Below are positions 489 through 29,257 of a stretch of 39,985 nucleotides of DNA, piece after piece; position 1 is the first letter of the stretch, and each line of letters starts with the position of its first letter. The position numbers and the translations under genes are program-made. Source of the DNA: a virus. The notes beneath the pieces were generated by a model. That model worked only from the letters and a program-made list of their open reading frames with translations, made no database searches and had not been told where the DNA came from. Where the stretch lies: positions 1-39,985 of IMG/VR virus record IMGVR_UViG_3300044638_002932; one strand, given 5' to 3'.

Positions 489-3400
489 ATGAGCATTCGT
501 ATTGAAGACCTCGTTTTCGATGGAGGCAGCAATAAGGTATCAATTGATGATCTTGTTTTTGATGAAGGAAGGCAACAGACACTTCAAGAGCAGGCTAAAG
601 TAAGCGAGCTTCGTCAAGTCCCAGAGATGATCAATCGTGGGCAAGGTCTTCCTATAGGTGGAGAACCAATGGTAGGCGGCCCAGATATATTGGCTCAAGA
701 GCAACGCCAAACCAAGACCTTCATGGAAGATGAGGAAGGCAAACCTGTAGAGGTTCGTCGCGCCCAAGCAATTGATATTGGTGGTAAGATTATCCAAGAA
801 CCAATTAGCCCAGATGGAATGACGCTGGACTTCCGAGGGAATCTGATCAAAGAAAAGACCAAGGAACTTGAGTCCGCTTCTGGTCTTCCATACTCTGAGT
901 ATATCAATAAATCAAATACTCTACGCTCAGAACTCTCAAAACTACAGCAAGAGCAACAGAAGCATGAAGCAAATCAACTCAGTTTCTTGAGTAAATTGAT
1001 TACCCGCAAGCCGGGGGTTTCTGTAGATGTAGAGACTGGATTGGGAGAAGAGAGGATTACTGGGGTAGAGAGTGAAATTACAAGTATTCCAATTCTGACA
1101 AGGGGAAAGGCGGCGATTAAGAGGGTTGGTGATCAGCGTCAATTCATAGATAACATTATCGGAAACGATAAATTCTTGGACTACATCAAAACCAAAGGAA
1201 TCGATGCGCCCGGAATGATGTCTCGCATTGCTGGTCAGTATCTGAATATTGGTGAAGCACCAGATAAAGTTGAACAACTAAAGCAGAATCCAGAAGTAAG
1301 AAAGCTCGCGGAAGAATGGGCGATGACATCTCCCGACTTCATGGATTTAGCTACGGATATTTTTAAGCGAGCATGGGATGGATACGCTGGGGCTATTGGG
1401 TCTGGAACTGTTGGCCCAGTCGGTATGCTCTTGAAAGAAGCTGGCTATGAGCAAGCAGGACAATCATTGGTAGAAGCCGCCGAGTATGCAGACCAGCAAA
1501 GACAACTTGGTCAAGACCCAAGAAGGGTTGGAGCATTAGCTCAGTTCGGTAGAGATGTGTCTGGTGGACTTGGATTTAGTGGTGCTGCGATTGTAACTGG
1601 TGTATTGGGAAATACTGCTCGCGCATCACTTGGATTAAACTCTGCAAGGGCAATCGATCTTTTTCAAAAAGGAAATACACTTACATTCTCTGGGTTGAAT
1701 AGTGCATGGGCAGGATACTCAGAAGCCAAAGCGGACGGGGCTACAGATGACCAAGCAAAGCAAACGGCACTCTTCTCCGCTCTAACACAAGCACCATTGG
1801 AATTGGTGTCTCCATTGCAAAAGTGGGTAAGTCGATTTGATCCAAAACAACAAGAAGCAATCTACAAAGGTCTTAATAGGGCCGCGCAAGCCGTAATCGA
1901 AGGAACTGAAGAAGCGTTGTTCAATGAGATGCCGCAGCAGATTGCTGGTAATTTGGTGAAGAAGTATGTCTACGATCCCAACCAAGACATCTTTGAAGGA
2001 ACTGCATACGCTGGCGGTGTGGGTGGGGCATCGGGTGTAATTACATCCATCTTCACCCAGATGATTGCTGGAAAGCGAGCTAAGAAGCAGGCAATAAATG
2101 GTGATCAAGAAGGTTCAGAAGAAACTGATATTGAATCCAAGGCAGATGCTATGGCTGACCAGTTAGCTCCAGACGCAGTATCTGATCTGGCGCAACAGAT
2201 GACTGCTGTGAGCGGAGATATCGACAATCTTAAAGAAGAGATTGCTAACGACGAGATGGGTCTACAGGCGATTGAAAAAACCGCGCCAGAATACCAAGCC
2301 GCCGAACTGGCATTGAATGAGAAGAAGACCAACCTCGCGCAATTACAGACCCAATTTGATAAACTCTCCGCAGGCCCAGCAGAAGTTAAAACAGAAGCCC
2401 CTGCCGCAGCACCTGCAACACCCACCGCTACCAAGGAAGCAGCACTCGCAAAGATCGATGAACTGAACAAAGAGTTCGATGCTTTGGATGAGAACGACCA
2501 AGTAGGCATCAATAGGGTGAACGAAGCTATCGCAGTTGAGCAGAATAAACTGGCTGAACTTACCGCTATTGAGCAAGGAGTAGAACCACAGGGAACAACG
2601 CCAACCCGTGAGATTGGACTACCACCATCGGGTAGAAGGTCAGAATTTGGAACCTTCTTTCCAGATCGACCAGTCCTTCAAGCGTTCGTTAAAGCTACAG
2701 ACAAAGTTCTTGGTGGCATCAAGGCTACAGGGAAACGCGCTCAGAAGCTCAAGAATGCGATCAGAACAGGGATTGCTGCCAATGCAGGGTTCTTGGCTGG
2801 AACGAATACAGAGGTCATCTCAAGCGAAGAATACGCCAAGCTGACAGGTGGTAAACAAGTAGCCGCCGACACTGGCACATACCGCGCAACATTCTTGAAT
2901 GGTAAAAAGTATCTGGTAGTTCCAGATGTAAATGTTCTTCAGCAATTAGCGACCCAAGGTGAACAACGAGCAGCAAGCAGAGACGCTGCATTAGATCAAG
3001 AGTCACGGGCTACAGCAAAGAAACTGGAGGAGGAGATGATCCACCTCTCCATGTTCCAAGGTATCCAAGACGAATACAAAGCTCTCAAGAAACCTAAACT
3101 CACAGAGCAAGAATACATCGTAAAGCGAATCTCTGACATAGCCCAAGAAGTAAAGCGCACGAATCCAAATGCACTACCGGGTGTGTCTGAAGTATACTTG
3201 AATGAGAAGAACAAGAACCTTGATGATCTTACCTTCTCTCAAGAGTTCATGCGAATGGTCATCCAGCGTGTAAGAACTGGGCAGATCACTGAGGACTTGA
3301 ATGCTATCAGACAAGCAGAGAAAGAATCCTTCTCTGATAAAGGTGCTATTGCATCGCTCAAGAATTCAATCCTAAACGCTCTTCAATTCCTCCGCAACTC

Positions 3401-6400
3401 CATCGCTCGTTACCTTGGCAAAGGAACCTCGACCAAGGAAGTAAAGAAGATGGAAGATACCATCAACAACATCCTTGATGAGTATGGTATCGTGAAGGGT
3501 GAGGCTAATTACGAGTTTAAAGATTACTCTGCCGCTCAACCTAAAGGTGAAGTGAAGGTAGCAGAAGAAGTTGCGTCTGCACCAGAAGCCCCAGCAACCG
3601 CAGTATCGGAAACGATAACTCCAGCGATTGAAGCTGGTGCGCCATTCTTTCAAGATTTTGAAGTATTCAATAAATACGGAGAAGATCGTAGGGTAGAACG
3701 AATAGAAGTGCAGGCTAACAATGCACAAGAAGCGGCAGGATTAATTCGTGAAACAGATAAATATAGGAGGCTTGCTACCCAAAATAGAAACAAATCAATA
3801 CGTTTGTTTCCTATGGGTGAACCAACTCAAAAAAGGCTTCCTACTGAATTTCCAATTATCGCCCGTGCTGGCGTAACTCCAGAAGGTGAACCAATGTCCA
3901 AGAAGAGTCAGACTGTGATGCAGAAGATCACAACAAGAATGATCTCTGACTTGGAAGCTCAAGCAGAAATGCTCAAGCCAAAGAATAACAAGGCATACAC
4001 TGAGTATCAGTCCCGCGCTGCACAGAAAGATAAGAAGTGGAATAAGGCATTACTTTCTCCGTTCTCAATCGCCGCGAATCTATTCACATCGAACTCATTT
4101 ACGGCAGCAAACAATGCCTTGGATAAGATTTTCAGAAACAATCCAGACGCTGACTTCTTTAGTGTTGCTCAGAACTTAGCAGGAATGGATGAGGCTACCG
4201 CACAGAGAGCATATAACATTTCTGCATACGAGAGATTGGTATTGATGGAGATGATGTATGAACTCTCTTCTGTTTACAGAAAAGAAGTGATGGATTCCAA
4301 CATGAAGGCAACTGCCCGTGAATCCTTTGCTTTGGAATCTATTGATGTAGAAGCGGGATTGGCTCGTAATATAGCTCTGACTCTGCGGGAGAGTGGACGA
4401 ATGGTTCAAGCCGCCGCTGCTCTCCGCAAACTTGTCGGTGCAGGAATGGCTATTGATACCTACAAGAGGAACATCATTGCCTCGATGGGTAATCTGTCAG
4501 CAGTTACAAGATCATCATTCAATGAAGTAGCCAATGCCATCCGAGGTGATCGGCGCAAGTCGATGGATAAGGTCTTCAATACTCAAGAAGTATTTAGGAA
4601 GGCAGCGTCCTTGATTAAGATGGCGCAGAGGAATCCAGAGAAGGTTCGTCAATCAATCCGCGCAGAAGTTTCTAAAAAGCAAACCGACTCAACCCGCCAG
4701 ATTCTATTAGACTTTGCAGCGGGACTCTTCGATACCAAAGAAGACAAGTATGCCAACATGGTGGTAGACCAAACTGTTCAGAACATCCTTTCGATTGGAA
4801 TGAACAAGAAGGAATTCTCCATCGATAATGTAACCAAGTTCATGTATCAGTCCTTTGCTGCCGCCGCGAAGCAGATGGGCATTCAACAAGCTGGAATTGA
4901 AAAGCAGAAGGCAGGCAAGCGCAGTGGCAAATACTTGGAGATGGTGAAGGCAGTTATCGGAAACGATAATGCTTACAAGTCCTTCTTGAATGATTTGGCA
5001 AACCGAATGGCAGAGAAGTATCAGAGTAGGGATGCCTTCAATGCTGACTTCGCGGAACTCTTCAAGGCACTTCGTTCAAACGAATGGGCAGATGGGCTGA
5101 GGACACAGGCTATCAAAGACTCAGCAGACTTCTTGAACTACAAGTTTGCTGACCTATTCACCTACCTTGGATCGAAGAGGAATGTAAACCAAGAAGCGGT
5201 TAAGCAGCACATCCGCACTGAACTTCAAGGAACTGGCGCATCAAACGAACTGATCGAGAAGTTCATCCAAGATACAGACAAGTATCTGAACGATGAAACG
5301 AGCAGAATCCTGCAAGATACACTTGGATTCCGTATCGATGAGAAGACAGGCAAGGTTATACCTAAACCACTTCTCTCACAGAAAATTCAAGAGGAAGCTG
5401 AAGCTCAGTTCAAAGCAATCAAGAACCTCAAGGATATCAGCAAGCTATCAACGAGCGATGAGGGTAACTTCAAACAAAACTTGATCAGTAGAATCATCAC
5501 TGAAGTTGGAATGGATGAGCAAAATGCTACTGAGTTGGCTACCTTAATCTCCGCTCAAATGGAGAAGGCAATGCTGGCGCAGAGGAGCGAGAATGTAGAC
5601 AAGGCTATCAAGAAAGCTCAAGAGATATTATTAAACAATAAAGTTAAATCAACCGCCAATCAACGCACCATCCTTCAGAAGCTAATTGAGATGGCAAACA
5701 TGGGCGTATTGGATTCGGAGATGGTATATGAGGCATTCCGACAGACCCATGACTTCCCTAAAGGCTTCATGCCATACGATGCTGAGTTTGCAAATACTCT
5801 TCGTGAGTGGGGTGACAGGATTTCTAAACTTCCAGCAGGAGTTATCCGTAGCATCGAAGAGGACAAGATGGGCCGAGCATTGTTAGGCAGGTCTAAGTTC
5901 TCTACTGGCGATGTTCTCTCAAGCTATTGGTATTTTGCACTGATCTCACAGGCATCAACCTCTGTGATTAACGCTTTATCTGGTTCAAGTAACTTGATTG
6001 CCAACGTAGCTACATGGTCATTATACAACCCTAAAACAATCATTCCAATGATGAGGGCGATGTATTCTGCTATTTCTGGGAAGCAATCAGCAGCAGTGAA
6101 TTCATTTCTGTATGTCATGCGTAACGGATTAAACCCATCTGGTATGCAGGATGAGAAGAGGGCTAAGTATCCTAAGACGAATGTGCTTGAGGGTGCTACC
6201 CCAGAGAACACTCCCAAGATTGTTTACTACCTTACCAACTTCGGTGACGGGAAGATTAACTTCCTCCCCGATTGGATGAACACAGCATTGAAGAATGTTA
6301 ACCCAAGGCAGTTGATGCGACTGATGAGGGCAACTGATATGTTCTTGAGGGAAGTTGCATACGAAGCGAAAGCAGCACAACTTGGTGCAGCGGATTTTAC

Positions 6401-7802
6401 AAGGGAAGGGTTTGACATGGCAAAGCGTCAAGCTGAGTTGGAGTTGGCATCATCGCAGGCTACAGGAAAACAGAAGGAGCAGGAAGTCATAATCCGCGCA
6501 AATGAAATCTATCGTGAGCAGAGATTGAAGGATGAGGAGAGACGAGCTATTGCGGAGCAGGCATCACTCGAAACTGCATTCAACCAAGACCCACAAGGCT
6601 TATTCGGCATGATGGCAAACTTTGTTAACGCACTTCTTGCCAAGTATCCAGCCACCAAATTCGTAATCCCATTCACAAATGTTGTGGCTAACGTAACGAA
6701 TGAGTTCCTTAACTACACATTCCCAGTTGCAATGTGGCGCGTGTATCAATCCAAAAAGAATGGATTGAAAGATCCGTTTACCCAAGGTCGAGCAGATAAA
6801 GAACATGAGATAGCAATTAAGGGCGTGATTGGTTTTGCTGCTTTGGTTGTTCCTTTCATTATCCAAGCACTCACAAGTGGAGATGAAGAGGATCAAGAGA
6901 AACGTCCATATGTTCAGTTCTATGCTGAAGGGCCAAAAGACCCGCGACAAAAGAAAATCTGGCAGCAACGGGGAGGTCAGAAGTATTCGGTAAGAGTTGG
7001 TGATACATACTACTCATACCTATACACTCCACTTGTTATACCATTGGCTATGTCTGCGATGTTGCAGGAAGAAGTGAAGTCAATGAAGAAGAAGGGCGAA
7101 AAACTTCAAGCCGAAGACATGGGGAAACTTGCAGCAAGCGTTCTGACTGCACCATTCTCTGTTGGATTCGTTGCTGTCCTCAACCAATCATTCCTTACTG
7201 GTCTTGCTGACTTGTTGGAGTTCAAGGAATCTCAAGACCCAGTTCAAAAAGGAACGCAATTTGTAGGAGGAATCATATCCCGTATGTTGGTTCCGGGTGC
7301 ATTCCGCGACATCAACAAACTCTACACAGAAGACAAAGCAGTGGGTGGAGATTACCTTTCAAACTTCTTCAAGGATATGCCCGGATCAGTGAACTTCTTG
7401 AACAAGGATGTAAATTACTTTGGTGATGATGCCAAGTTCCCATCTGCTGTGCAAGAGTCTGGATTCGGAAGACGCTTGGCAAGTGTTGTTGGGCGTATCG
7501 TTTCTACTGAGCAACCAGACCCAGCATGGGATGTTTTGTATAGAAACAACCTTACACCTCCAGCTTGGGATTCAAGTCTGTCATGGGATAACGGGAAGAA
7601 GATGACCAAGGAGCAGGAGTTGCAGTTTATCAGAGAGGCTGGGCCAATGATGCGTGATGCTATCATTGACATACAAGGTGATCTTGATGAGCTACCACTT
7701 GATGAAGCTCAAGACCTACTCAGCACAGAGATTCGTATCATCCGTAGAGAGGTGAAGGAAGACCTGCAAGATAGGTTGGAAATCCCTCTTGACATTGAGT
7801 GA
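489..7802 (+). CDS. Giant polyvalent-type / internal virion protein, 2437 aa
   Basis: This single uninterrupted frame fills 7.3 kb. The N-terminus carries two copies of a short motif (IEDLVFDGG, IDDLVFDEG at about residues 4-28). Residues about 300-530 are Gly/Ala-rich and amphipathic, resembling the membrane-active or packing regions of phage polyvalent proteins. Residues about 545-640 look coiled-coil. Ala/Pro-rich linkers at about 633-650 and 1026-1046 separate modules. EEEMIH at 847-852 resembles a zincin motif but lacks the first His. The C-terminal third is helical, with hydrophobic stretches near 2112-2130 and 2180-2240. In podoviruses such giant proteins are usually packaged and ejected with the DNA. 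That role is inferred from size, modular look and neighbourhood; no enzymatic activity is proven. Two copies of the 16-bp palindrome lie inside, both encoding I-G-N-D. Confidence 0.7.
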   Translation: MSIRIEDLVFDGGSNKVSIDDLVFDEGRQQTLQEQAKVSELRQVPEMINRGQGLPIGGEPMVGGPDILAQEQRQTKTFMEDEEGKPVEVRRAQAIDIGGKIIQEPISPDGMTLDFRGNLIKEKTKELESASGLPYSEYINKSNTLRSELSKLQQEQQKHEANQLSFLSKLITRKPGVSVDVETGLGEERITGVESEITSIPILTRGKAAIKRVGDQRQFIDNIIGNDKFLDYIKTKGIDAPGMMSRIAGQYLNIGEAPDKVEQLKQNPEVRKLAEEWAMTSPDFMDLATDIFKRAWDGYAGAIGSGTVGPVGMLLKEAGYEQAGQSLVEAAEYADQQRQLGQDPRRVGALAQFGRDVSGGLGFSGAAIVTGVLGNTARASLGLNSARAIDLFQKGNTLTFSGLNSAWAGYSEAKADGATDDQAKQTALFSALTQAPLELVSPLQKWVSRFDPKQQEAIYKGLNRAAQAVIEGTEEALFNEMPQQIAGNLVKKYVYDPNQDIFEGTAYAGGVGGASGVITSIFTQMIAGKRAKKQAINGDQEGSEETDIESKADAMADQLAPDAVSDLAQQMTAVSGDIDNLKEEIANDEMGLQAIEKTAPEYQAAELALNEKKTNLAQLQTQFDKLSAGPAEVKTEAPAAAPATPTATKEAALAKIDELNKEFDALDENDQVGINRVNEAIAVEQNKLAELTAIEQGVEPQGTTPTREIGLPPSGRRSEFGTFFPDRPVLQAFVKATDKVLGGIKATGKRAQKLKNAIRTGIAANAGFLAGTNTEVISSEEYAKLTGGKQVAADTGTYRATFLNGKKYLVVPDVNVLQQLATQGEQRAASRDAALDQESRATAKKLEEEMIHLSMFQGIQDEYKALKKPKLTEQEYIVKRISDIAQEVKRTNPNALPGVSEVYLNEKNKNLDDLTFSQEFMRMVIQRVRTGQITEDLNAIRQAEKESFSDKGAIASLKNSILNALQFLRNSIARYLGKGTSTKEVKKMEDTINNILDEYGIVKGEANYEFKDYSAAQPKGEVKVAEEVASAPEAPATAVSETITPAIEAGAPFFQDFEVFNKYGEDRRVERIEVQANNAQEAAGLIRETDKYRRLATQNRNKSIRLFPMGEPTQKRLPTEFPIIARAGVTPEGEPMSKKSQTVMQKITTRMISDLEAQAEMLKPKNNKAYTEYQSRAAQKDKKWNKALLSPFSIAANLFTSNSFTAANNALDKIFRNNPDADFFSVAQNLAGMDEATAQRAYNISAYERLVLMEMMYELSSVYRKEVMDSNMKATARESFALESIDVEAGLARNIALTLRESGRMVQAAAALRKLVGAGMAIDTYKRNIIASMGNLSAVTRSSFNEVANAIRGDRRKSMDKVFNTQEVFRKAASLIKMAQRNPEKVRQSIRAEVSKKQTDSTRQILLDFAAGLFDTKEDKYANMVVDQTVQNILSIGMNKKEFSIDNVTKFMYQSFAAAAKQMGIQQAGIEKQKAGKRSGKYLEMVKAVIGNDNAYKSFLNDLANRMAEKYQSRDAFNADFAELFKALRSNEWADGLRTQAIKDSADFLNYKFADLFTYLGSKRNVNQEAVKQHIRTELQGTGASNELIEKFIQDTDKYLNDETSRILQDTLGFRIDEKTGKVIPKPLLSQKIQEEAEAQFKAIKNLKDISKLSTSDEGNFKQNLISRIITEVGMDEQNATELATLISAQMEKAMLAQRSENVDKAIKKAQEILLNNKVKSTANQRTILQKLIEMANMGVLDSEMVYEAFRQTHDFPKGFMPYDAEFANTLREWGDRISKLPAGVIRSIEEDKMGRALLGRSKFSTGDVLSSYWYFALISQASTSVINALSGSSNLIANVATWSLYNPKTIIPMMRAMYSAISGKQSAAVNSFLYVMRNGLNPSGMQDEKRAKYPKTNVLEGATPENTPKIVYYLTNFGDGKINFLPDWMNTALKNVNPRQLMRLMRATDMFLREVAYEAKAAQLGAADFTREGFDMAKRQAELELASSQATGKQKEQEVIIRANEIYREQRLKDEERRAIAEQASLETAFNQDPQGLFGMMANFVNALLAKYPATKFVIPFTNVVANVTNEFLNYTFPVAMWRVYQSKKNGLKDPFTQGRADKEHEIAIKGVIGFAALVVPFIIQALTSGDEEDQEKRPYVQFYAEGPKDPRQKKIWQQRGGQKYSVRVGDTYYSYLYTPLVIPLAMSAMLQEEVKSMKKKGEKLQAEDMGKLAASVLTAPFSVGFVAVLNQSFLTGLADLLEFKESQDPVQKGTQFVGGIISRMLVPGAFRDINKLYTEDKAVGGDYLSNFFKDMPGSVNFLNKDVNYFGDDAKFPSAVQESGFGRRLASVVGRIVSTEQPDPAWDVLYRNNLTPPAWDSSLSWDNGKKMTKEQELQFIREAGPMMRDAIIDIQGDLDELPLDEAQDLLSTEIRIIRREVKEDLQDRLEIPLDIE

Positions 7803-17366: not shown

Positions 17367-17966
17367 ATGAAAGCAAAGAAACAAGTCGATGCCCGTAAGA
17401 AGTGGGACATGGATAAAGTAAGAGCGTTATACATCCAAGGAACGGAAATCGCTGACATAGTAAAGATGCCAGAGTTTAATGGACTCTCACGCTTCTATGT
17501 GAAGAATGTAATGATCAAGGGGAAGTGGTCACAGCAAAGACAGCTCATCCGAACACAATCTACTGGATTGATAGAGAAGACGATAGTGGACGCAATGAAG
17601 GAACAAACGGAGGATCACCTGCGTTTCATGCTCAAGCAAATCAGCGAGGAAAGAGCCGAGATAGTTGCCAGAAAAAAGATGGGTAACATAAAAGACCAAC
17701 GGGAACGCTTGGAAGTGTTATCAGAATTAGATAAAACCGCGAGAAGGACGCTTGGCTTGGATGATCAAAACATTGCAGATAAACGAGCAATGAGCGTGAA
17801 CGCAATGATCAGCCTCCATGTAAGACCACCAAGCAAAGCGGAAGAGGTGGAAGTAATATCCGGGCAATATGTGGAAGGGGAAAAGGGGGAACAGAACGAG
17901 GTGGAAGAGGCTATCGTTTACGATAACGAAGGGGAAGTGGAAGAAGGGGAAGAGCAAGCAGTCTGA
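17367..17966 (+). CDS. Terminase small subunit-like DNA-binding protein
   Basis: The 199-residue product starts with a helix-turn-helix-type region (WDMDKVRALYIQGTEIADIV and YVKNVMIKGKWSQQR, about 13-56) followed by a long helical middle. It includes SELDKTARRTLGLDD, a pattern seen after the DNA-binding domain in many small terminase subunits. It ends in a Glu-rich tail. The assignment rests on this layout and on the absence of another TerS candidate; it is 12 kb from TerL. A regulator of another kind is possible. A palindrome copy at 17911-17926 encodes I-V-Y-D-N. Confidence 0.45.
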   Translation: MKAKKQVDARKKWDMDKVRALYIQGTEIADIVKMPEFNGLSRFYVKNVMIKGKWSQQRQLIRTQSTGLIEKTIVDAMKEQTEDHLRFMLKQISEERAEIVARKKMGNIKDQRERLEVLSELDKTARRTLGLDDQNIADKRAMSVNAMISLHVRPPSKAEEVEVISGQYVEGEKGEQNEVEEAIVYDNEGEVEEGEEQAV

Positions 17967-18114: not shown

Positions 18115-18837
18115 CTACTTTTTAGCTTTGAGGGTTTCGACTGCTTTCGCCGCGTCAACGTGCATGAGAATATAGCCGCCTAAGTTAAGCTTTGCTATGA
18201 TCTGCTTTGCAATCTTCAGACGAGCCTCACCCTCTGCAATCTTGGAATATTTATCGGTATACGATAAAAGCAGAGTTTCGAGCTTGTCCGCCTCGTCTGC
18301 GAAGTTTACCGCTTTCGGTTCACTAGTCTCTTCCTGCTTCACTGGCTTGTCCTTTGGCTGAATCGATTCTTTGACCGCACGAGGGCTTTTACCTTCGTTG
18401 AGTAATGCGACCGCTTGTTGGCTTGTCTCCTCGCCCTTTAAGAGCTTGGAAACCTCGCGCAGCGCATAGAGGTCTTTCACCTTGTCAATGCTTAAGCCCT
18501 TGTCCTCAAATGAAGGGAGGGCTTTTGAGATACTGATAAGGTTCGGAATAGTAGAACCAGACCAACGTGCTTTCAACTGTTCACTATATGCTTTGCTTTG
18601 CTCTTCTGGCTTGTTCTTGAACACCCAAGCACTGAACAGAATCGCATCACGAATGGCAGATTGCCCTGCATCAAGTTTAGTCACAACGTAACCTACAGCG
18701 TCATCTAATGAGATATCGGCTGCTTTACTGCTTTCGAGATAGCCCAAGCTATTTCGTTTGAACATCTGATCAATTGCGACTGGTTCACGGACGATTGCGA
18801 CTGTTGCTGTTGCTGTTTTTTTGTTTGCTGTTTTCAT
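18115..18837 (-). CDS. Putative DNA-binding protein, 240 aa
   Basis: The product is mostly helical: a Thr/Ala/Lys-rich N-terminus, a central segment (AWVFKNKPEEQSKAYSEQLK; SIDKVKDLYALREVSKLLKG; ALLNEGKSPRAVKESIQ) of HTH or ParB-like pattern, and a charged linker before a C-terminal helix bundle. The name is tentative. It has its own promoter (19009-19037), and repeated motifs around that promoter suggest it is regulated, possibly by itself. The 17-base palindrome variant at 18251-18267 lies inside. Confidence 0.5.
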   Translation of the reverse strand: MKTANKKTATATVAIVREPVAIDQMFKRNSLGYLESSKAADISLDDAVGYVVTKLDAGQSAIRDAILFSAWVFKNKPEEQSKAYSEQLKARWSGSTIPNLISISKALPSFEDKGLSIDKVKDLYALREVSKLLKGEETSQQAVALLNEGKSPRAVKESIQPKDKPVKQEETSEPKAVNFADEADKLETLLLSYTDKYSKIAEGEARLKIAKQIIAKLNLGGYILMHVDAAKAVETLKAKK

Positions 18838-18875
18838 GTTTAGTCTTTCGGTTTATCAATCAGCTGATCGCATCA

Positions 18876-19002
18876 AATCCAATTGGATTCAATCATGGTT
18901 TATTCCATGTCATGATGAACGATTGCCGACTGATTGCCGAAAGCTAAAAAGTAAATTCAGAATGTCACAGATCAAATTGCAATTGGGACATTCCCAATCA
19001 CT
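18876..19002 (-). promoter_or_regulatory. Leader with inverted and direct repeats
   Basis: Within this 5' leader I see AATCCAATTGGATT (18876-18889), a tandem GATTGCCGA pair (18921-18929, 18932-18940) and ATTGGGA-CAT-TCCCAAT (18982-18998), whose right arm lies at the inferred transcription start. They look like operators or RNA hairpins controlling the 240-residue gene. Confidence 0.5.
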
Positions 19003-19008
19003 GAAAAG

Positions 19009-19037
19009 AGAATACCACATGACATGGTCAGCGTCAA
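19009..19037 (-). promoter_or_regulatory. Sigma70-type promoter for the 240-residue gene
   Basis: On the minus strand: TTGACG (19037-19032), 17-bp spacer, TATTCT (19014-19009). The palindrome variant at 19067-19082 is centred about 72 bp upstream of the inferred start, the same distance as at the 7938 promoter. Confidence 0.7.
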
Positions 19038-19066
19038 CTATTTGATCAAATTATTTTCAGATTATT

Positions 19067-19082
19067 TTCTCGTTAACGATAA
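19067..19082. repeat. Dispersed palindrome variant upstream of the 19009 promoter
   Basis: TTCTCGTTAACGATAA, one base off the consensus arms. Confidence 0.7.
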
Positions 19083-19284
19083 CAGCAAAGCATGACAACA
19101 TTGTCATGTATTCTGTGTCATGAATTATTTGTCCTGACATATTTGTAAGGAATCTCTTTTTCTATGAGTGACAGAGGCCACCACCCACCCACCCCACCAT
19201 GCCTGACTCGCTGATGCTGCCAACGGAAACCCCTCCTCAGAGAAAAACTGCCATTTTGTATGTCAATATAGTCTATTGACAGAG

Positions 19285-19365
19285 CAAGCTAAGTTCAAGC
19301 TAAAATCCAAGCTAATTCATGCTAATGTCGTATGGTTAGCTTGGGTCTTATGCTAATGTCTTATG
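19285..19365. repeat. Iteron-like CAAGCTAA/ATGCTAATG array
   Basis: CAAGCTAA starts at 19285, 19296 and 19308 (11-12 bp period), followed by ATGCTAATG at 19319 and 19350. A 20-base stretch (ATGCTAATGTCGTATGGTTA, 19319-19338) recurs exactly at 19702-19721, on the other side of the small coiled-coil gene. This may be a replication or partition site, or a trace of an inserted gene. The rest of 19123-19284 is C-rich or AT-rich without a clear feature. Confidence 0.6.
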
Positions 19366-19371
19366 TGCTGC

Positions 19372-19659
19372 TTATTGTAATGCACGTTCAAGATTTTCTT
19401 CAAAATGGCTTGAGTAATAATCTTCTATTTTTTTGAAATTTTCTTTTTTCTTCTTATTCTCGTAGTAGACTGAAGCGATGGTTTGTAGTCTGTCGCGCAA
19501 CAAGTCGTTTTCTTCTTGGAGCGATCTATTTTCAAATGTGAGTCTTAACACCTCGTTTTGAGAAGAGCAGTAGAACTTTCTTTCTGTCTTCCATTTTTCT
19601 ACTGCTTCGTCTCTTTGTTTTTTTATTTCTTCTATTTCTTGTTTGTTGGTTTTTTTCAT
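19372..19659 (-). CDS. Coiled-coil protein, 95 aa, flanked by direct repeats
   Basis: The product is almost entirely heptad-type coiled coil (KKQRDEAVEKWKTERKF; FENRSLQEENDLLRDRLQTI) and very Lys/Glu-rich. No catalytic domain is present. The 20-base direct repeat on each side (19319-19338 and 19702-19721) suggests that the gene is a discrete cassette. It is the last gene of the long minus-strand operon and is not overlapped with a neighbour, unlike most others. Confidence 0.6.
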   Translation of the reverse strand: MKKTNKQEIEEIKKQRDEAVEKWKTERKFYCSSQNEVLRLTFENRSLQEENDLLRDRLQTIASVYYENKKKKENFKKIEDYYSSHFEENLERALQ

Positions 19660-19701
19660 TTGTTCATTGATGTTATTGTCTTATGCCTTGCCCTATGTCT
19701 T

Positions 19702-19721
19702 ATGCTAATGTCGTATGGTTA
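19702..19721. repeat. Second copy of the 20-base repeat flanking the coiled-coil gene
   Basis: ATGCTAATGTCGTATGGTTA, identical to 19319-19338. The 19660-19780 gap otherwise holds only AT-rich sequence and a doubtful 24-codon frame. Confidence 0.75.
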
Positions 19722-19780
19722 TCTTTAATTGTATTTTTGGTGCTGAAATACAAATCTGAATGCTTAAATTGCATTTTCTA

Positions 19781-28930: not shown

Positions 28931-29257
28931 ATGGAAATGAAACATCCATTAGAAACTGCTTATGAATCCTGCATGAGTGCCTACGAGCAATCACGCACGA
29001 TCCGTTCTCTTGGACGAAAGACTTTCGCCAGCCAGCTTCGTGAAACAAGGAGATTGCTGAAATTGACTGTCCGTGAACTTGGAGACAAGATCGGCGTGAC
29101 AGGATCACTGGTCAACCAGATTGAAGTAAACTCCAAGAGTATCTTAAAGAAAGAACAAGTCGAAAAAGTAATCGCCCTATGCTACAAAGAAAAACGCCCC
29201 TACAGGCAAAAACAGGATTCAAAAAGCGAGGCGGAAAGCTCAGAGCATTCTCAGTAA
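28931..29257 (+). CDS. XRE-family HTH regulator, 108 aa
   Basis: Residues about 31-80 form the Cro/CI-type fold: FASQLRETRRLLKLTVRELG, DKIGVTGSLVNQIEVNSKSI, LKKEQVEKVIAL. The C-terminus is Lys/Ser/Glu-rich. It could repress divergent promoters between 28883 and 28930. XRE proteins bind short palindromes, so it is another candidate for the dispersed 16-bp site. Its end overlaps the HNH gene by 79 bp in another frame. Confidence 0.75.
   Translation: MEMKHPLETAYESCMSAYEQSRTIRSLGRKTFASQLRETRRLLKLTVRELGDKIGVTGSLVNQIEVNSKSILKKEQVEKVIALCYKEKRPYRQKQDSKSEAESSEHSQ

Follow-up and report, generated by a model that had tools for sequence, protein, structure and literature searches.

The region upstream of the gene for a 240-amino-acid protein in a phage genome carries a promoter-like sequence followed by a structured RNA, apparently a member of a new family of structured leaders on phage mRNAs. 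The source is an IMG/VR virus record, and the stretch that was analysed, all 39,985 nucleotides of it, is called the window. There is hardly any doubt that this family of structured leader RNAs exists, and its members share a compact, strongly covarying fold built around a four-way junction. The arrangement as a whole is probably best understood as a promoter and then a structured mRNA leader that acts in cis to control translation. An earlier note on this DNA had proposed a dense control region for the same gene, and that proposal is borne out.

There are 11 other viral records in which relatives of the 240-amino-acid gene are found. Leader coordinates and scores are identical for two of the corresponding loci, L007 and L008, and these were therefore counted once, which gives 10 distinct relatives and, with the window, 11 distinct leaders (W denotes the window locus and L0xx the loci of relatives). 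The upstream stretches that were compared comprise 463 nucleotides for the window and about 480 nucleotides for each relative. Among phage records there was no match to the 240-amino-acid protein and none to the leader by blastn, and the 43 pattern stretches obtained in genome contigs included no confirmed relative of the gene. The elements of the promoter, the leader and the gene are as follows, with positions given for the window.

19032 to 19037, minus strand: promoter-like -35 box, TTGACG
19018 to 19024, minus strand: heptamer in the promoter spacer, without counterpart in the spacer of any of the 10 relatives
19009 to 19014, minus strand: -10 box TATTCT, separated from the -35 box by a 17-nucleotide spacer in all 11 leaders
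18979 to 19001, minus strand: possible hairpin P0, close to where the transcript presumably starts
18963 to 18974, minus strand: conserved linker motif TGATCTGTGACA, putatively boxA-like (weak resemblance)
18845 to 18944, minus strand: core of the leader RNA, made up of stems P1, P2 and P3 and of hairpins Pa, Pb and Pc around a four-way junction
18937 to 18943, minus strand: 5' strand of P1, CTTTCGG, pairing with 18845-18851
18925 to 18934, minus strand: 5' strand of P2, pairing with 18855-18864, with double changes in 7 of 10 pairs
18919 to 18923, minus strand: 5' strand of P3, ATCGT, pairing with 18867-18871
18910 to 18918, minus strand: small hairpin Pa, TC-ATCAT-GA, overlapping the heptamer at 18908-18914
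18894 to 18909, minus strand: hairpin Pb, CATGG-AATAAA-CCATG
18872 to 18893, minus strand: hairpin Pc, very variable in sequence and covarying, with double changes in 9 of 10 pairs
18867 to 18871, minus strand: 3' strand of P3, GCGAT, pairing with 18919-18923
18855 to 18864, minus strand: 3' strand of P2, pairing with 18925-18934
18845 to 18851, minus strand: 3' strand of P1, CCGAAAG, 7 nucleotides from the ATG
18115 to 18837, minus strand: 240-amino-acid gene (P0001), under the control of the region and without a Pfam, PHROG or NCBIfam match

Every one of the 11 distinct leaders is preceded by TTGAC(G/T/A)-N17-TANNNT, which, as judged from its sequence, is a promoter of the sigma70 type. The leader is 171 to 176 nucleotides long in 10 distinct cases and is longer in L029. 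The fold always takes the same position between the promoter-like sequence and the start codon of the 240-amino-acid gene (11/11), and its core makes up the last 100 or so nucleotides of the leader, ending 2 to 8 nucleotides before the start codon. We rejected a shared coding leader peptide within the element, as no small frame common to the leaders was visible by eye.

The four-way junction is tight, with 0 to 4 unpaired bases between its helices. The inverted repeats in 18845-18944 are helices of this single RNA fold, a point that the earlier note does not make. P1, P2 and P3 together comprise about 22 pairs in the window and contain small internal loops; the short conserved ones are CA/AAA and, in most leaders, A/G. 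The leaders carry P1 in the versions CTTTCGG/CCGAAAG, CCTTTGG/CCAAAGG and GCTTTGG/CCAAAGC; all 77 of its 77 cells are paired in the structural alignment, and 3 of its 7 pairs exhibit double changes. An A-rich stretch that follows P1 is predicted to pair with a U-rich stretch that precedes it. Pa reads CC-AUCAU-GG in L004-L007 and L009, and this hairpin is part of the minimum-energy fold of every leader except W and L006.

Several lines of evidence support the fold. When each leader was folded alone with RNAfold, P1 and P2 were present in all 11 (by eye). Free-energy z-scores ranged from -3.8 to -8.2 for the sense strand (-5.2 for the leader RNA of the window) and from -1.6 to -4.7 for the antisense strand, with the sense strand giving the stronger value in 11/11. 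A manual structural alignment, adjusted by eye to match the structure, has 425 cells, of which 366 are Watson-Crick, 52 are G-U, none are A-C and 7 are other, and double changes are found in 32 of its 44 pairs. In addition, a covariance model (R1) built from four leaders recovers the seven leaders that were not used to build it, with values such as 6.7e-17 for the window, 5.5e-6 for L010 and 9e-7 for L029. In the alignment produced with the covariance model, which leans towards its own model, 95.3% of 406 cells are paired. The 11 leaders are kin and their changes are non-independent events, and with this understood both-side changes occur in 27 of 37 pairs of that alignment. Its covariation is 0.728 versus 0.250 +/- 0.023 for shuffled versions, with 0 of 500 shuffles as high, and falls to 0.108 or below when the alignment is slid. 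RNAalifold, applied to a plain MAFFT alignment, found P1 and P2 with 8 of 16 pairs double-changed; the four-way junction was not recovered from this unguided alignment because MAFFT misaligns the junction.

The types of pairs also indicate the strand on which the structure matters. The cells of the covariance-model alignment comprise 332 Watson-Crick, 55 G-U, 2 A-C and 17 other combinations, whereas slid versions contain 46-81 G-U versus 36-54 A-C. The excess of G-U over A-C in the true register indicates that the mRNA-like (minus) strand is what selection keeps. The same excess, together with the weaker antisense folds, speaks against explaining the inverted repeats by an operator or a cruciform in double-stranded DNA. 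A single-stranded DNA hairpin formed by the same strand would yield an equal asymmetry.

When 12 whole records were searched with the model, 11 yielded a single copy each; the L029 record was missed, yet the L029 locus itself scores 9e-7. Two weak extra matches to R1, one antisense to the L009 element (0.0038) and one at L003:6139-6182 (0.58), are taken as chance. Two DNA patterns that are blind to the protein gave 4 and 7 stretches in viral contigs, all of them in contigs with known leaders, and an earlier pattern gave 16 matches, comprising 7 in such contigs and 9 that appear chance-like by eye. Two more matches there came from a further pattern, to which no known leader conforms, and neither had a model match. 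There was no convincing copy of the leader RNA away from the 240-amino-acid gene in the viral contigs scanned, and it is tied to this one gene throughout the 12 records and the viral-contig patterns. In Rfam 15, no family reached its gathering threshold with the window, L005, L029 or L010 (0 matches), and the best matches by E-value, for the window and L005, are far below the thresholds. The leader RNA is thus like the cis-regulatory leaders of Rfam 15 in description, unlike them in that no family threshold is reached. It is also named in none of the titles and abstract openings among the open-access papers listed, and we call it undescribed on the basis of this result and the missing Rfam match.

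The region upstream of the -35 box contains further elements.

19068 to 19081, no strand assigned: copy of TATCG-N4-CGATA with one mismatch, upstream of the -35 box
19091 to 19139, no strand assigned: TGTCA/TGACA array upstream of the promoter, with heptamers at 19091, 19102 and 19116 and a degenerate TGTCCTGACA (19130-19139)
19147 to 19281, no strand assigned: non-coding conserved block with a dyad TGTCAATATAGTCTATTGACA (19261-19281), a G-rich stretch and AGATTCCTT

The earlier note had interpreted the region, with its TGTCATG/CATGACA heptamers, as rich in operators and perhaps a genetic switch. The five exact copies are present as it described, at 18908(+), 19018(-), 19091(-), 19102(+) and 19116(+), and the one at 19018-19024 indeed lies inside the 17-nucleotide spacer on the minus strand. 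The inverted repeats that it listed are likewise present, namely CATGACAA-CA-TTGTCATG at 19091-19108 and the palindrome at 19067-19082. The direct repeat reported by the tool, at 18810-18839, is located at the start of the gene; there is also a 14-nucleotide step at 19102-19122, reading CATGACACAGAATA / CATGACA on the minus strand.

One possibility is that a phage repressor or activator acts on the array and the spacer site to switch the promoter, which we consider rather doubtful. The clustering of heptamers is real: there are 14 in the whole window versus 7.05 +/- 2.84 expected, and 5 in 247 bases versus a maximum of 2 per 247 bases among 60 dinucleotide shuffles of the window. When any four-letter heptamer is admitted, 5 per 247 bases was reached in 1 of the 60 shuffles, and the window itself has places where four further words attain 5 or 6 copies. 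Just upstream of the promoter lie three heptamers and, as a fourth site, a degenerate one, with two of them 14 nucleotides apart, and L006 has a similar array with two 14-nucleotide steps. A protein that could bind them may also be encoded: an HTH_3 (XRE-type) domain scores above the family cut-off at about 29036-29170 (plus strand), and its product is a candidate for acting as regulator on the heptamers or on the palindrome. However, L006 is the only one of the 10 distinct relatives in which an array like that at 19091-19139 is found. Upstream heptamers number 5 in the window, 3 in L006 and 1 in L009, where the single copy is displaced to another place far upstream; the remaining 8 distinct relatives have none, and no spacer site occurs in any of the 10. 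A role as conserved signal is therefore ruled out for the heptamers, with 8 of 10 distinct relatives having none upstream of the 240-amino-acid gene. The site corresponding to the heptamer at 18908 reads CATGGCA in 4 of 10 relatives (L005, L006, L007 and L009) and diverges more in the others, and this heptamer belongs to the RNA fold (Pa/Pb). Moreover, W and L006 are 77% identical upstream of the -35 box, where the next best relative is at 58%, but their leaders are only 64% identical, compared with 75% between the W leader and those of L002 and L005. The array thus looks like a swapped module, and from these sequence comparisons it seems to be shared via recombination. The dense control region proposed by the earlier note stands, and the heptamers as the basis of an operator or switch gain little support from the comparison.

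The dispersed palindrome that had also been noted is confirmed as TATCG-N4-CGATA, with 23 exact copies in the window versus 0.044 expected. Of the spacings from 0 to 8, just two occur: 4, with 23 copies, and 5, with 2 copies. The element spans 14 bp with a centre that is mostly KNNM, and examples are located at 1157, 3604, 7893, 11942, 14275, 17337, 20329, 36366 and 38984; 13 copies are centred inside chosen ORFs and 10 outside. Exact copies are present in all ten relatives' loci examined, and most relatives have a more or less degenerate copy upstream of the promoter. In its dispersal the palindrome resembles stoperator, parS/Noc or matS sites. No match to the HTH_ParB Pfam domain was found in the window at E <= 1. 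Perhaps the heptamers and the palindrome constitute a separate layer of control that would operate at the DNA level.

Further upstream, AGATTCCTT (19147-19155, minus strand) is common to all 11 loci. The block at 19147-19281 served as a negative control: whichever strand is folded, its z-scores lie between -1.9 and +1.3, and there is almost no consensus fold. The G-rich block as a second RNA is ruled out, there being no structure by the methods used on the leader. Beyond it lies a 95-amino-acid ORF (19372-19659) for which tblastn gave no match in the loci of the relatives and which is flanked by repeats of the GCTAATGTCTTATG / GCTAATGTCGTATGG type at 19321-19370 and 19676-19723. This is possibly an inserted or mobile gene. 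Elsewhere in the window, an ORF for 2437 amino acids (489-7802) has no PHROG match at E <= 0.001. The gene convergent to the 240-amino-acid gene (17367-17966, plus strand) encodes 199 amino acids and is found in all 11 relatives' loci searched, with 77-98% identity over the parts present; it has no Pfam or PHROG match.

The 5' part of the leader possibly leaves room for antitermination or stabilisation, given P0 and the boxA-like linker. The stretches picked by eye for P0 can fold locally in 11 of 11 leaders, 6-7 nucleotides past the -10 box; in folds of the entire 5' part, P0 wins in 7 of 11 and loses in W, L004, L009 and L029. In rRNA leaders, boxB precedes boxA, and the conserved linker motif here comes after P0. 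It is nevertheless unlikely that the nascent RNA promotes antitermination, whether by a 5' hairpin with a boxA-like linker or by a direct effect on RNA polymerase such as that of HK022 put. The L029 version of the linker, GTTCTTTGACA, is one base off the gamma-proteobacterial boxA consensus GYTCTTTAANA given in a passage of PMC5725501, and there are more minus-strand ORFs beyond 18115. However, a hand count against that gamma-proteobacterial consensus gives 3 mismatches in seven leaders (including W), 2 in L006 and L011 and 1 in L029, with an extra base in L004. In addition, the next gene (17367-17966) is a convergent one on the plus strand. A scan of cellular genomes with the linker motif produced 61 matches. 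A 16S start motif was found within 800 nucleotides of 0 of these, and 1 of the 61 had a CRISPR-like array downstream versus 7 of 1080 random places. Kinship of the linker with rRNA or CRISPR leaders is accordingly not above chance, in a comparison where many loci did not extend far enough on one side to be tested in full.

That scan also revealed a word, TYGATCTTTGACANTTTGAWT, which occurs several times per genome in two planctomycetes; the sites are in L054, L070 and L083 (Blastopirellula sp. NORP48) and in eight contigs of Planctomycetaceae Bin_14. A word of the same type in L092, at about 4148 (a Rhodospirillales MAG), ends 24 nucleotides before a CRISPR-like array with a 61-nucleotide period.

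We return to control of translation. The leader would presumably be transcribed from the TTGACG/TATTCT promoter. P1 and its A/U-rich extension would then probably shut the ribosome-binding region immediately upstream of the AUG, and some factor would open or lock the leader RNA, such that the output of the 240-amino-acid protein would be set at translation. Repression of translation by the leader RNA, like the nature of what it would bind, is something that we infer. In the predictions for the 11 leaders, the region from -12 to -5 has a mean unpaired probability of 0.00-0.38 and the AUG is partly open (0.23-0.80). The predicted cost of keeping the stretch from the 3' strand of P1 to the AUG single-stranded is 9.5-15.1 kcal/mol, and a lock of 10-15 kcal/mol is strong for a simple switch, which weighs against this reading. 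There is no clear Shine-Dalgarno sequence visible, and closure of the ribosome-binding site is for this reason not clear-cut.

A leader that is stabilised or processed would draw on the same features, with the 5' hairpin and the long helix protecting the mRNA, or with a cut by RNase III freeing the start site. A possible P0 at the presumed 5' end and the roughly 22 pairs of P1-P2-P3 are consistent with this idea, and the locked start site would fit translation that is activated by cleavage. The covarying four-way junction would be unneeded for an RNase III site, however, and we regard this explanation as improbable. A metabolite-sensing riboswitch that acts on translation appears a little less probable again. 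The compact junction, the short conserved internal loops and the proximity of P1 to the AUG are features that such an RNA could have, but the element is associated with one gene only, has no Rfam match and exhibits no shared alternative fold. Specifically, the computed folds with an open ribosome-binding site include no alternative partner for P1 that is common to the 11 leaders, a result that counts against the translational control element as well. An RNA thermometer, for which the predicted closure of the ribosome-binding region by P1 might speak, is highly improbable given that the predicted opening of -12..-2 shifts by at most 0.06 between 15 and 45 C in all 11 leaders. Together, the paired region from -12 to -5, the cost of opening and the insensitivity to temperature fit a translational operator which some factor opens or holds.

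The identity of this factor is a matter for tentative proposals. As a first guess, the 240-amino-acid product might act on its own leader; this autogenous control is suggested by the occurrence of the leader RNA before one gene only, in one copy per phage, and by the basic nature of the product (pI 9.2). No recognised RNA-binding domain was found in the protein. Two AlphaFold models, based on 9 and 11 sequences, have mean pLDDT values of 69.0 and 69.6 and a confident helical core at approximately residues 44-160. Foldseek searches of the PDB and BFVD gave no trusted fold match (none with E <= 0.001), the best BFVD match being A0A6J5NPK0, an uncharacterised phage protein (E 0.081, probability 0.91, TM 0.33/0.37). 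VIA-align gave Z values up to 4.5, and the comparison with Noc (7nfu_B; Z 3.1, rmsd 5.2, 119 aligned) is within noise. A PDB profile match to a designed repeat (E 3.1e-6), in which no single stretch passes alone, was set aside.

Autogenous translational control has precedents among phages. The leaders of T4 gene 32 and gene 43 are bound by their own products, which inhibit their own translation, according to passages in PMC3014915. The leader described here is alike in that a structured, gene-specific element is located upstream of a phage start codon. As these passages describe them, the T4 gene 32 leader has a pseudoknot 67 nucleotides upstream and an A+U-rich stretch, and that of gene 43 has a single hairpin (PMC3014915). 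In contrast, the present element is a four-way junction of about 100 nucleotides that ends 2-8 nucleotides before the AUG, its autogenous binding is only presumed, and its 240-amino-acid protein, unlike gp32 and gp43, has no recognised relative beyond this phage group. The suhB leader is regulated through boxA by Nus factors and shares with our leader a boxA-like word in an mRNA leader, which here is a partial match; the passages on suhB in PMC5725501 mention no junction fold, unlike the leader RNA here. Finally, the HK022 put RNA suppresses pausing and termination in early transcription, as stated in PMC9378689, and is similarly a cis-acting phage RNA, whereas the element described here, unlike put, adjoins the start codon.

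What is new here is a strongly covarying four-way-junction leader without an Rfam match in an uncultured phage group, structured phage leaders as such being already known. It is conceivable that this leader represents an undescribed class of phage RNA that senses its own protein, or a ligand from the host or the phage, and thereby gates translation of its gene. A sensor of this kind would add to a promoter which, for its part, bears a copy of the palindrome dispersed genome-wide; the leader has so far been seen in one uncultured phage group. The leader RNA is a ready object for tests of its fold, of mutants and of its binding partner, and it illustrates that inverted repeats resembling operators, close to the start codon of a phage gene, can reflect the folding of an RNA.
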